Shown: piece after piece, positions 20,782 to 23,291 of the stretch
Layout: each line of letters opens with the position of its first letter
Numbering within the stretch: position 1 is the first letter of the stretch
Assembly (NCBI RefSeq): GCF_002305875.1
Contig: NZ_CP022098.1
Coordinates: 8,184,001 to 8,248,000 of the forward strand
Length of the DNA: 64,000 bases
Reading direction: 5' to 3'
Source of the DNA: Cystobacter fuscus
GTDB taxonomy: Bacteria > Myxococcota > Myxococcia > Myxococcales > Myxococcaceae
The notes under the pieces: model-generated
Databases searched by the model: none
What the model was told of the DNA's origin: nothing
What the model saw: only the letters and a program-made list of their open reading frames with translations
Program-made: the position numbers and the translations under genes

Positions 20782-21036
20782 ATGAGATCCTTGAAGAGCG
20801 TCTGCATGTTGCTGTGCATGGCCGTTGCCTCCGCATGTGGTGGAGAGCTTCCCGAGGACGTCAACACGGGCGAGGGGGAGGCCACCCCCATGACGGAGGC
20901 AGTCTCAAACGACACCTCCGCCCAAGGGCTTCTCATTCCCCCGGGCTGTGGGTCCTTCAAACAGCGCTGCTGTGCGGACAATGTCTGTTACAACGGACTG
21001 GAGTGTGACCCTTCGTCGAAGACCTGTCTCTACTGA
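20782..21036 (+). CDS. Small Cys-rich lipoprotein
   Basis: An 84-residue protein starting at an ATG with a good ribosome site (aaggag). The signal peptide ends in a lipobox-like VASAC. The mature C-terminus is cysteine-rich (CGSFKQRCCADNVCYNGLEC, then a final Cys), resembling small disulphide-knotted secreted proteins of myxobacteria. Its stop overlaps the convergent PKS-C stop by seven bases. Function unknown. Confidence 0.7.
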   Translation: MRSLKSVCMLLCMAVASACGGELPEDVNTGEGEATPMTEAVSNDTSAQGLLIPPGCGSFKQRCCADNVCYNGLECDPSSKTCLY

Positions 21037-23291
21037 GACACGGCGGGCGTCAGCCAATAGCGCCGACGCTGGAAGGGATAGGTGGGAAGCGCGATCCGGC
21101 GCCGCGCATGGGGCGCGTCGAAGGCCGCCCAATCCACTTCCACGCCCCGGACGTACAAGGCGCCGAGTGTCTCCAACACCTGGCTCCACTCCGCGCCGTC
21201 CGCGCGTCCCAGATCCAATCGCACACCCGCGTCACGTGCCCGCGTGACCCGGGGCAGCACGGCCGAGGCCCAATCCACGGCGGGACCCACCACCCCCGCC
21301 GCGCGTCTCAGTCCCGCTTCGAGCCCGAGCACCCCCGCCTCCACCGCCGCGACCCACTCCCCTACCCCCTCACCCGCTACCCCCGTGGGCCGCACACCCC
21401 ACGCCCGCCACATCCGTGCCAGCGCCCACTGCCGCGCGAACACCGCGATCCGCTCCTGGGACGCGTCCTTCCACCGCCCGGCCCCATCCCCATACATCAG
21501 CCCCACCAAGGGCTCTCCGAGCAAGTCCTTCACGGCCGCCGCACAGGCCTCCAGCCCTTCTCGGAACGCCGGTTGGGTGTCGTACAGCTCCCGGCCTCCA
21601 GCCGCTCCCCCGTCCCCGCCAAAGACAAACGTCACGTCCGGCGCCAGCGCGCCCGGAGCCACCTTGCTCCCCCCTCGCGCTTCCAGCAGCCGCTCGCGTA
21701 CCTGCCGCGCATCGCGCCCCACCACCGCCAGCCGGTGCTCGAAGTGCGTCCGCCCCACCGCCGCCGAGAAACACACGTCCCCCAGAGACTCAGTGCTCGT
21801 CTCCAGGAACCGGGCGTAACGCTCCACCTGCGCCCGCAGCGCCTCCTCGCTCCGGGCCGACAACACCAGCACGTGCCCGGGCCGCTCCGGGCGCCGCTCG
21901 GGCTCCACCCGCGGAGGAGGCTCCGCCAGCACCACGTGCGCCAGCGTCCCCGTCCGCCCGTAGGACGTCACTCCCGCGATGCGCGCCCCCTGTGTGGGCG
22001 CCCACGCCGTCAGCTCCCCGGGCACCTTCACCGCCATGCTCGCCCAGTCGATGCGGGGGTTGGGCGTCTTCAGGTGCAGGTGCGCCGGCAACTGGCCATG
22101 CCTCATCGCCAGCACCACCTTCATCATCCCCACCACCCCGGAGGCCGCTTCCGGATAGCCCACGTTCGTCTTCACCGAGCCCATCCACAGCGACTCGCCC
22201 CCCTGGCGCCCCTCCTTCAACACCGACCACATCGCCTCGGCCTCGATGGGATCTCCCATCGCCGTCCCCGTGCCGTGTGCCTCCAGATAGCTCACCTCGG
22301 CCGGGGCAACTCCCGCGCTCTGGAGCGCCTGCCGGATGACTCCCTGCTGCGCCACCCCATTGGGCACCGAGAAAGCGCTGCTCGGTCCGTCATGTCCCAC
22401 CGCCGAGCCCCGGATGATCGCCAGGATGTTGGCGCCACGCGCTCGCGCGTCCGACAACCGCTCCAGCGCCAGCACCCCGCACGCCTCCGCCCGGCCAAAG
22501 CCATCCGCCGACGCGTCGAAACTCTTGCACCGCCCGTCCGGCGAGAGCGCTCCGCTGCTCGAAAGATAGACACTCACCTCCGGCGAGAGCAGCAGGTTCA
22601 CCCCTCCCGCCAGCGCCACGTTGCACTCCCCGTTGCGCAGGCTCTGACAGGCCAGGTGCACCGCCACCAGTGACGAGGAACAGGCCGTGTCCACCACGAG
22701 GCTCGGTCCCTGGAAGCCCCACAGATAGGACAGCCGCCCGGAGATCGCGCAGTTGGCGCGTGCCCCCATGAAGGTGGGATCAATGCCCGCGAGCCCCTCC
22801 TGATCCAACACCCGCTGCCCGTAGTCGTTGTTCATCACCCCCACGAACACACCCACCCGCTCGCGCCTCGCACGATCCACCGCGTGCCCCGCCCGCTCCA
22901 ATGCCTCCCACGCCACCTCCAACACCAGACGTTGCTGCGGATCCATCCGCTCCGCCTCACGCTCCGAGATGCCGAAGAACCGGGCGTCGAACCGGTCCAC
23001 GTCCTTCAGGAAGCCCCCCCGCCTCGTGCCGATCTTCCCCGGCTCCGTGCCGAACAGGGCCTCCGCGTCCCACCGGTCCGGAGGCACATCGCTCGTGGCG
23101 TCCACCCCCCGCACCATCAACTCCCAGAAGTCCTCCGGCCCCTCCACCCCTCCCGGCAGCCGGCAGCCCATGCCGACGATGGCGATGGGCTCCCGACGCG
23201 CCGCCTCCGCCTGCTCCAGCCGCGCCTCCAGCTTGCGAATCTTCACCAACTGCTGCTGGAGCAACTGCCGGTAATTGATTTCCTCGGACAT
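21030..23291 (-). CDS. PKS-C: terminal PKS protein with altered KS and inactive AT, no ACP or TE
   Basis: A protein of 753 residues. Residues 1-35 are a docking coiled coil (INYRQLLQQQLVKIRKLEAR), then a ketosynthase (about 36-455) and an acyltransferase-like part (about 460-735), ending in the usual linker LPTYPFQRRRYW. The KS keeps Cys204 (DTACSSS) and His339 (HGTGT), but the KTNxGH His is Tyr379 (KTNVGYPEA). The later GFSGTNAH motif is YGRTGTLAH. The AT centre GHSxGE reads GEGVGE, losing His and the nucleophilic Ser (Gly642), and the GQG motif is GGDGG. A chain could load on Cys204, but decarboxylative extension and malonyl loading look impossible. The frame is intact. It starts nine bases after PKS-B with a good ribosome site. 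Confidence 0.92.
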   Translation of the reverse strand: MSEEINYRQLLQQQLVKIRKLEARLEQAEAARREPIAIVGMGCRLPGGVEGPEDFWELMVRGVDATSDVPPDRWDAEALFGTEPGKIGTRRGGFLKDVDRFDARFFGISEREAERMDPQQRLVLEVAWEALERAGHAVDRARRERVGVFVGVMNNDYGQRVLDQEGLAGIDPTFMGARANCAISGRLSYLWGFQGPSLVVDTACSSSLVAVHLACQSLRNGECNVALAGGVNLLLSPEVSVYLSSSGALSPDGRCKSFDASADGFGRAEACGVLALERLSDARARGANILAIIRGSAVGHDGPSSAFSVPNGVAQQGVIRQALQSAGVAPAEVSYLEAHGTGTAMGDPIEAEAMWSVLKEGRQGGESLWMGSVKTNVGYPEAASGVVGMMKVVLAMRHGQLPAHLHLKTPNPRIDWASMAVKVPGELTAWAPTQGARIAGVTSYGRTGTLAHVVLAEPPPRVEPERRPERPGHVLVLSARSEEALRAQVERYARFLETSTESLGDVCFSAAVGRTHFEHRLAVVGRDARQVRERLLEARGGSKVAPGALAPDVTFVFGGDGGAAGGRELYDTQPAFREGLEACAAAVKDLLGEPLVGLMYGDGAGRWKDASQERIAVFARQWALARMWRAWGVRPTGVAGEGVGEWVAAVEAGVLGLEAGLRRAAGVVGPAVDWASAVLPRVTRARDAGVRLDLGRADGAEWSQVLETLGALYVRGVEVDWAAFDAPHARRRIALPTYPFQRRRYWLTPAVSQ
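22045..22317. repeat. KS-coding repeat, copy in PKS-C
   Basis: This 273-base segment aligns without gaps to 26662-26934 in PKS-B at about 90% identity (about 28 mismatches by hand count). One identical block of about 40 bases lies near its left end. The GH to GY codon change falls within it. Confidence 0.85.

Follow-up and report, generated by a model that had tools for sequence, protein, structure and literature searches.

A conserved terminal ketosynthase protein in ten myxobacterial species as a candidate polyketide chain-release device

Introduction

Two terminal ketosynthases (KSs) have been described that release a finished chain. CalA3 of calcimycin biosynthesis (PDB 7WVZ, 8I4Y, 8I4Z) is a terminal KS-AT0-DH0-KR0 protein without an acyl carrier protein (ACP); the serine of its acyltransferase (AT) is glycine, and its KS releases the chain as an amide, with 3-hydroxyanthranilate as the nucleophile (PMC10006239). 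TAS1, the tenuazonic acid synthetase, carries a terminal KS with the residues Cys-His-Asn and releases its product by cyclisation (PMC4640141). Also named in the discussion of the CalA3 article, as KS homologues forming C-O or C-N bonds, are NonJ/NonK (nonactin), CerJ (cervimycin) and BomK (A33853) (PMC10006239). Here we describe PKS-C, the last protein of a three-gene polyketide synthase (PKS) operon in the myxobacterium Cystobacter fuscus, encoded in a 64,000-nucleotide stretch of DNA that we call the window (bases 8,184,001-8,248,000 of one contig 12.35 Mb long). PKS-C is a KS-AT protein with a substituted KS residue, a dead AT and no carrier. We propose that it is a working, non-extending release protein that docks on the preceding protein, PKS-B, takes the chain onto Cys204 and lets it go to an oxygen nucleophile rather than joining it to malonyl. 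On sequence evidence, we give this proposal a probability of roughly 0.47.

Taken together, CalA3 and TAS1 are precedents for a terminal KS passing its chain to a non-malonyl acceptor, with the last catalytic His either kept or replaced. NonJ/NonK, CerJ and BomK act as stand-alone enzymes and do not form the last module of a cis-AT line; they are likened to PKS-C by description. An earlier note on this DNA regarded such a KS as an unusual way to end an assembly line without a thioesterase; KS-mediated release without an ACP or thioesterase is already known (CalA3, PMC10006239; TAS1, PMC4640141).

Release from cis-AT lines that lack a thioesterase is often unexplained, and a trailing KS-AT is easily misread as a further extension step. 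The papers listed by our literature searches (on PKS-C, on Tyr in the KTNxGH motif, and on terminal or myxobacterial KS release) included no description of it that we recognised, most subscription journals lying outside their coverage. One article mentions an unassigned T1PKS that is conserved in Archangium (PMC12766979); it might be, but need not be, the cluster described here.

Results and Discussion

Architecture of PKS-C

PKS-C is encoded by the final gene of a minus-strand operon (the earlier note names no strand) that runs from PKS-A through PKS-B to PKS-C, and it starts 9 bases beyond the PKS-B stop. Its frame is intact, as the earlier note had read it, with an ATG start, 753 codons, 753 amino acids and no internal stops in an open reading frame (ORF) of exactly the predicted extent (Table 1). 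The docking element and ribosome site named in that note were also recovered, the former as a coiled N-terminal segment and the latter as GTGAGG shortly 5' of the ATG.

The KS of PKS-C differs from its neighbours at the third catalytic residue. Cys204 and the HGTGT His339 are present where they had been placed, as is Tyr379, which replaces the His of KTNxGH and gives KTNVGY. The neighbouring KSs likewise proved to retain Cys, His and His, with KANIGH in PKS-A, KTNMGH in module 1 of PKS-B and KTNVGH in module 2. Two further stretches of the PKS-C KS are reworked. In the second of these, GTNAH has become GTLAH, and the loop that reads GFSGTNAH in the sister KS reads GRTGTLAH.

The AT of PKS-C is cut down as well as mutated, as the Pfam match covers only the first third of the profile and the centre reads GEGVGE. 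A Pfam scan matched both KS halves and the KS-AT linker and found no PP-binding, KR or thioesterase domain in PKS-C, which agrees with the missing ACP, KR and TE reported earlier.

Conservation among relatives

PKS-C is real, conserved and under selection, with a consistent anatomy, a single origin and, in the eight genomes compared, no shared gene downstream. We searched 96 family genomes at E <= 1e-210, counting relatives above 1100 bits as full-length. Thirteen genomes matched PKS-C and 10 held a full-length relative, comprising 4/4 genomes of the window's genus and 6/6 of a second genus; the other three (G006, G091, G092) held only fragments or related KSs. Two further proteins (L016, L017) are the same as those of G060 and G061 and were counted once. 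Named orthologues occur in Archangium lansinium and A. violaceum Cb vi76.

All ten orthologues have the Cys, the HGTGT His, KTN[VLI]GY, the Ser-to-Gly change in the AT and an open frame, and in nine of them Pro follows the Tyr. None has a normal KTNxGH or GHSxGE, so the search for relatives with the same Tyr that the earlier note had proposed came out in its favour. Identical letters in ten genomes make a sequencing error very unlikely, and we rejected sequencing or assembly error on this ground. Across the ten species, invariant residues make up 31 of 33 positions in the docking segment, 287 of 427 in the KS and 40 of 140 in the AT remnant. Cys204, His339 and Lys374 are invariant, and the AT is truncated to a varying extent between species.

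A third genus (G091, G092) contains two contig-end fragments that are 61-65% identical to PKS-C by BLAST and share its docking segment. They carry KTNLGH and GTNAH, so the ancestral KS was probably a normal one. Their AT centre lies beyond the contig end (L035, L036, L037), and the preceding module in G092 has an intact GHSVGE AT. We considered this protein as a contradicting orthologue and set it aside, as it is the outgroup to the group of PKS-C and PKS-B module 2 on the KS tree, at a support of only 83/96.

Selection and KS phylogeny

The PKS-C KS is constrained to a similar degree as elongating KSs of the same line. Ratios of nonsynonymous to synonymous substitution rates (dN/dS) were computed with an in-house Nei-Gojobori script over overlapping species pairs, leaving out the G091 and G092 fragments. 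Across eight pairs, the ratio was 0.105-0.229 for the PKS-C KS, 0.093-0.284 for module 1 of PKS-B and 0.120-0.372 for module 2; a ratio near 1, named in the earlier note as the mark of pure decay, was thus not found. The PKS-A KS gave 0.013-0.273 in six pairs, below PKS-C in close pairs. Over ten pairs, ranges within PKS-C were 0.105-0.252 for the KS, 0.098-0.495 for the AT remnant and 0-0.117 for the docking segment. The dS of the PKS-C KS equals or exceeds that of the other KSs, which partly lowers its ratio, and its dN is similar to theirs.

In a midpoint-rooted tree of 47 KS rows, the ten PKS-C KSs form one clade (support 100/100, stem 0.29). The sister clade consists of the KSs of PKS-B module 2 (stem 0.075), with a support of 83/96 at the joining fork. 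On this tree, the long stem of the PKS-C clade is the trace of a burst of change followed by constraint, with a single origin.

Eight positions are changed in 10/10 PKS-C proteins and identical in 37 other KSs (G270A, N299G, G306A/S, L345M, H379Y, S442T, F444Y, N450L/V). The His site and the two loops account for five of these positions, and N299 is two residues ahead of the first loop. The 37 comparison KSs are not independent, as 22 belong to this line in relatives, 5 to related lines and 10 to the C. fuscus genome itself. Twenty other KS places were fetched from a longer list of such places in that genome; 10 were aligned and 10 were checked by motif or pairwise alignment, and among the latter His was present in nine and Tyr in one (L074).

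Comparison with described systems

PKS-C shares with CalA3 the terminal position, the lack of an ACP, the AT Ser-to-Gly change, a KS as the (in PKS-C, presumed) catalytic domain and an N-terminal docking segment. The CalA3 residues C197, H332, K367 and H372, the four on which the comparison rests, correspond to C204, H339, K374 and Y379 of PKS-C at a constant offset of 7. If this offset holds, PKS-C residues 301-309 would be the counterpart of the moving CalA3 loop D294-S302 (PMC10006239). The two proteins differ in that CalA3 retains Cys-His-His along with an inactive DH and psiKR/KR, whereas PKS-C has Tyr379 and ends after the post-AT linker. In overall sequence, the two are about as alike as modular KSs generally are (E 2.5e-123). 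TAS1, in turn, resembles PKS-C in having a terminal KS with the last catalytic His substituted, but it is a fungal fusion of a nonribosomal peptide synthetase (NRPS) and a KS, with Asn rather than Tyr, no AT remnant and a place in a separate KS clade.

Compared with these types, PKS-C belongs to KS-based chain release as a kind, but its catalytic residue sets it apart from CalA3 and from TAS1 as these types are defined. It is an ACP-less terminal subunit with a dead AT, as in the CalA3 type, but lacks the Cys-His-His and the retained DH and KR; the His-to-Asn change of the TAS1 type is replaced by Tyr. From an elongating cis-AT KS-AT-ACP module it differs in lacking a complete Cys-His-His triad, an active AT (GHSxGE) and a carrier of its own. 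Two other classes of KS were considered and rejected. The KS0 domains of trans-AT lines have lost the HGTGT His and kept the Cys, and the HGTGT His is kept in 10/10 PKS-C orthologues. In KSQ loading decarboxylases the Cys is replaced by Gln, and the Cys is kept in 10/10.

Parallels to the Tyr substitution

Motif scans gave few KSs with Tyr at the KTNxGH His outside the orthologues. A narrow K-T-N-x-G-Y DNA motif matched 14 of 195 phylum genomes, comprising the ten orthologues and four non-KS places; the scan required K-T-N and so missed a second Tyr KS in the C. fuscus genome (L074/L084; G000:C1 about 7,468,700-7,474,000). This protein is a KS-ACP without an AT. A PigA-type prolyl-PCP dehydrogenase (NCBIfam NF053553, 507.7 bits, cutoff 500) and an amino-acid adenylation domain are encoded divergently beside it, and the locus looks like a pyrrole-starter cassette of another cluster.

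In the genus to which Streptomyces sp. DSM 110735 belongs, a similar Tyr motif gave three matches among 295 genomes, and the His version gave 1649 matches in 101 genomes of that genus, not individually verified as KSs. Across 396 genomes of the actinobacterial phylum, the Tyr motif matched twice, once among the same three and once at a non-KS place. Of the three matches, two lie in terminal proteins of about 900 amino acids with the order KS(Cys,His,Tyr)-AT0(Ser-to-Gly) and no ACP (L080/G351:C36, L081/G315:C201), and the third is in a KS-ACP protein. Each of the two terminal proteins follows the apparent end of another PKS and is the last PKS gene. Like PKS-C, they keep the Cys and His, have Tyr at the third site (here in KSNIGYP), have the Ser-to-Gly AT and lack a KR and ACP, and the L081 protein matches the AT profile only over positions 3-126 of 319. 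Unlike PKS-C, they have a normal GTNAH and VNQDG, and the L081 protein ends in a dimerisation element. Their KSs are 48-50% identical to PKS-C versus 50-54% to elongating myxobacterial KSs, which, from these pairwise identities only, points to an apparently separate origin. When the L081 protein was compared with plasmids by tblastn, the matches listed were only modules at about 50-60% identity. Both contigs also hold a carrier-reductase protein, an SDR and a transporter.

The number of parallels is small, and their roles are predicted. We consider it rather doubtful, though worth stating, that Cys-His-Tyr is a catalytic set that has arisen repeatedly and independently and through which a condensing KS becomes an enzyme of acyl transfer or release, acting as a thioesterase-free ester or lactone terminator in Archangium-type myxobacteria, in a second terminal KS-AT0 in Streptomyces relatives and in starter KS-ACPs. 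If true, KTNxGY would be a sequence-readable signature predicting non-extending KSs.

The rest of the assembly line

Loss of AT function, as judged by motifs and domain matches, runs through the line, affecting the first AT of PKS-A, module 2 of PKS-B and PKS-C. PKS-A carries tandem ATs, the first of which is dead through a Ser-to-Gly change. Module 2 of PKS-B retains a complete KS, DH, KR and ACP. It has no AT in G000-G003, while G010, G030, A. lansinium and A. violaceum have a Ser-to-Gly AT at this site. Correspondingly, the distance from HGTGT to the DH is 289-294 residues in G000-G003 versus 454-477 in three genomes of the second genus that retain the Ser-to-Gly AT. If the module elongates, its extender must be supplied in trans.

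The AT motifs read VASH and HAFH; the first KR of PKS-B has W at Y-8, and the other KRs are LDD-like. Applying what we take to be the meanings of these AT and KR motifs, together with the domain order, the final chain is predicted to be a 5-hydroxy-2-enoyl thioester.

Table 1. Features of the PKS locus, in window coordinates
Feature	Position	Strand	Basis or remark
PKS-C: docking segment - KS(Cys,His,Tyr) - linker - truncated dead AT - post-AT linker	21030..23291	-	ORF, Pfam, orthologues; final operon gene
N-terminal coiled docking segment, residues 1-33	23193..23291	-	31/33 residues invariant, 10 species
KS domain, residues 34-460	21912..23192	-	Pfam PF00109/PF02801; dN/dS resembles elongating KSs
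Cys204 codon, presumed acyl-accepting nucleophile	22680..22682	-	Cys in 10/10 orthologues
First reworked stretch, residues 299-307 (N299G, G306A/S, L307F)	22371..22397	-	KS alignment
His339 codon (HGTGT)	22275..22277	-	His in 10/10 orthologues
Tyr379 codon replacing the KTNxGH His	22155..22157	-	Tyr in 10/10 orthologues; His in 37/37 other aligned KSs
Second reworked loop, residues 442-450 (S442T, F444Y, N450L; TSYGRTGTL)	21942..21968	-	KS alignment
AT remnant, residues 551-690	21222..21641	-	Pfam PF00698 positions 1-114 of 319; 40/140 residues invariant
GEGVGE, former AT nucleophile elbow, Ser to Gly, residue 640	21357..21374	-	Ser to Gly in 10/10 orthologues
Post-AT linker ending LPTYPFQRRRYWL, protein terminus	21033..21221	-	Translation
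PKS-B: KS-AT-KR-ACP then KS-(no AT)-DH-KR-ACP	23301..32345	-	Pfam and motifs
Site of missing AT, PKS-B module 2, between KS linker and DH	26100..26414	-	Pfam; HGTGT-to-DH distance
PKS-A: KS-AT(Ser to Gly)-AT-DH-ER-KR-ACP	32342..40054	-	Pfam and motifs
GHGVGE, first dead AT of PKS-A	38114..38131	-	Motif
Class III CoA transferase, upstream of PKS	40326..41522	-	Adjoins PKS in six genomes examined

Genomic surroundings

Five other genomes share the gene order upstream of the operon, which includes a CoA transferase, SCP2 and a response regulator, among others. The CoA transferase was also found in 5/5 further family genomes searched, of which G086 and G096 gave no match to PKS-C. Its presence in genomes without a PKS-C match weakens its candidacy as a pathway gene and suggests that it is probably outside the pathway core.

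Downstream of PKS-C, no gene was common to all eight genomes compared (up to 9 kb, in-house gene calls). An ORF with a HEAT repeat follows in G000, G001 and G003 and an SDR in G002, and the second genus has opposite-strand ORFs that, judged by eye, resemble response regulators. In G001 only, a SnoaL-like gene and an AMP ligase lie directly after PKS-C (L027:5154-7216), and neither matches anything in the window. Between 17739 and 20694 of the window, long ORFs overlap on both strands, including a 701-aa ORF with a HEAT repeat; a 324-aa ORF in this region had no Pfam match when minus-strand ORFs were scanned.

Proposed release mechanism and alternatives

In the mechanism we propose, the docking helix of PKS-C would hold the protein on PKS-B in this short three-protein cis-AT line. 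Cys204, assisted by His339, would accept the finished chain from its presumed donor, the last ACP of PKS-B. PKS-C would not extend the chain because the KTNxGH His is Tyr, the active-site loops are rebuilt and the AT and ACP that would deliver malonyl are absent. The chain would then leave by attack of an oxygen, either of water or of its own hydroxyl, which PKS-B module 1 is predicted to place on carbon 5; attack by water or by an alcohol from outside would be just as possible. The double bond of the chain is predicted to be E, and direct lactonisation would be disfavoured. The truncated AT may be retained as a structural lid or part of the dimer. We infer that the chain moves to Cys204 and that condensation is lost, and likewise what the AT remnant does and which nucleophile attacks; the suggestion in the earlier note of a KS that accepts a chain without extending it fits the findings.

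Several observations weigh against this proposal. In CalA3, H372A abolished amidation and raised hydrolysis 4.15-fold, and hydrolysis rose in all five reported mutants, including C197A at 4.46-fold (PMC10006239). As the effect of C197A indicates, this hydrolysis need not go via the Cys, and it is weak support for a Cys204 route. A KS without the KTNxGH His could be catalytically poor and serve as a scaffold only. The third-genus protein also comes after a PKS-B-like protein and has a normal KS. A thioesterase gene (PF00975) follows on the same strand in both L080 and L081, which suggests that release there may not need the KS, and another PKS cluster of the C. fuscus genome has a discrete thioesterase fused to a carrier domain (L086:10255-11325), found without a systematic search for release enzymes. 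An AlphaFold model of the whole protein from 11 sequences had a mean pLDDT of 39, was good only in part of the AT remnant and gave no usable KS.

PKS-C could instead be a transacylase, with the chain on Cys204 going either to a different carrier protein or, as in CalA3, to a small nitrogen nucleophile produced elsewhere. CalA3 provides the precedent, and Tyr recurs in KSs where acyl transfer alone would suffice (the KS-ACPs of C. fuscus and of the Streptomyces-strain genus), although the roles of those KS-ACP proteins are themselves predictions. A partner carrier, NRPS or nucleophile-making gene beside PKS-C is not shared in the eight genomes, as only G001 has the AMP ligase and SnoaL-like gene, and we regard this reading as unlikely. 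Alternatively, PKS-C could be a plug without chemistry that caps PKS-B, stabilises the complex or blocks run-on, with release being spontaneous or left to a separate enzyme such as the discrete thioesterase found elsewhere in the genome. It would then make sense that the docking segment is the best conserved part, that one catalytic residue is lost and that the AT is dead and truncated. However, a mere cap has no need of an intact nucleophile, and Cys204, His339 and Lys374 are invariant in a KS as constrained as elongating ones, which makes a pure scaffold quite unlikely in our estimation.

The two remaining explanations are far less probable. That PKS-C still condenses, using a borrowed malonyl-ACP and a trans AT, gains something from module 2 of PKS-B, which already operates, if at all, without its own AT; it is very improbable given that PKS-C has no ACP, that the KTNxGH His is absent in 10/10 and that eight otherwise invariant KS positions are replaced. 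Least probable of all is a decaying remnant of an ordinary module heading for loss. The varying AT truncation, the looser AT ratio (up to 0.495) and the normal-KS counterpart in another genus are what such decay could leave, but the open frames, identical core residues in 10/10, low KS ratio and long stem followed by constraint led us to reject pure decay or a pseudogene, the AT part alone being looser.

Implications

The conserved terminal Cys-His-Tyr KS provides a testable rule for lines of this kind and a natural experiment on the role of the KTNxGH His. With about 750 residues, PKS-C is also small, which makes it a candidate part for trials of chain release in other lines. For these myxobacteria, our results suggest that the last protein of the line has, in ten species, turned from a builder into a release device.

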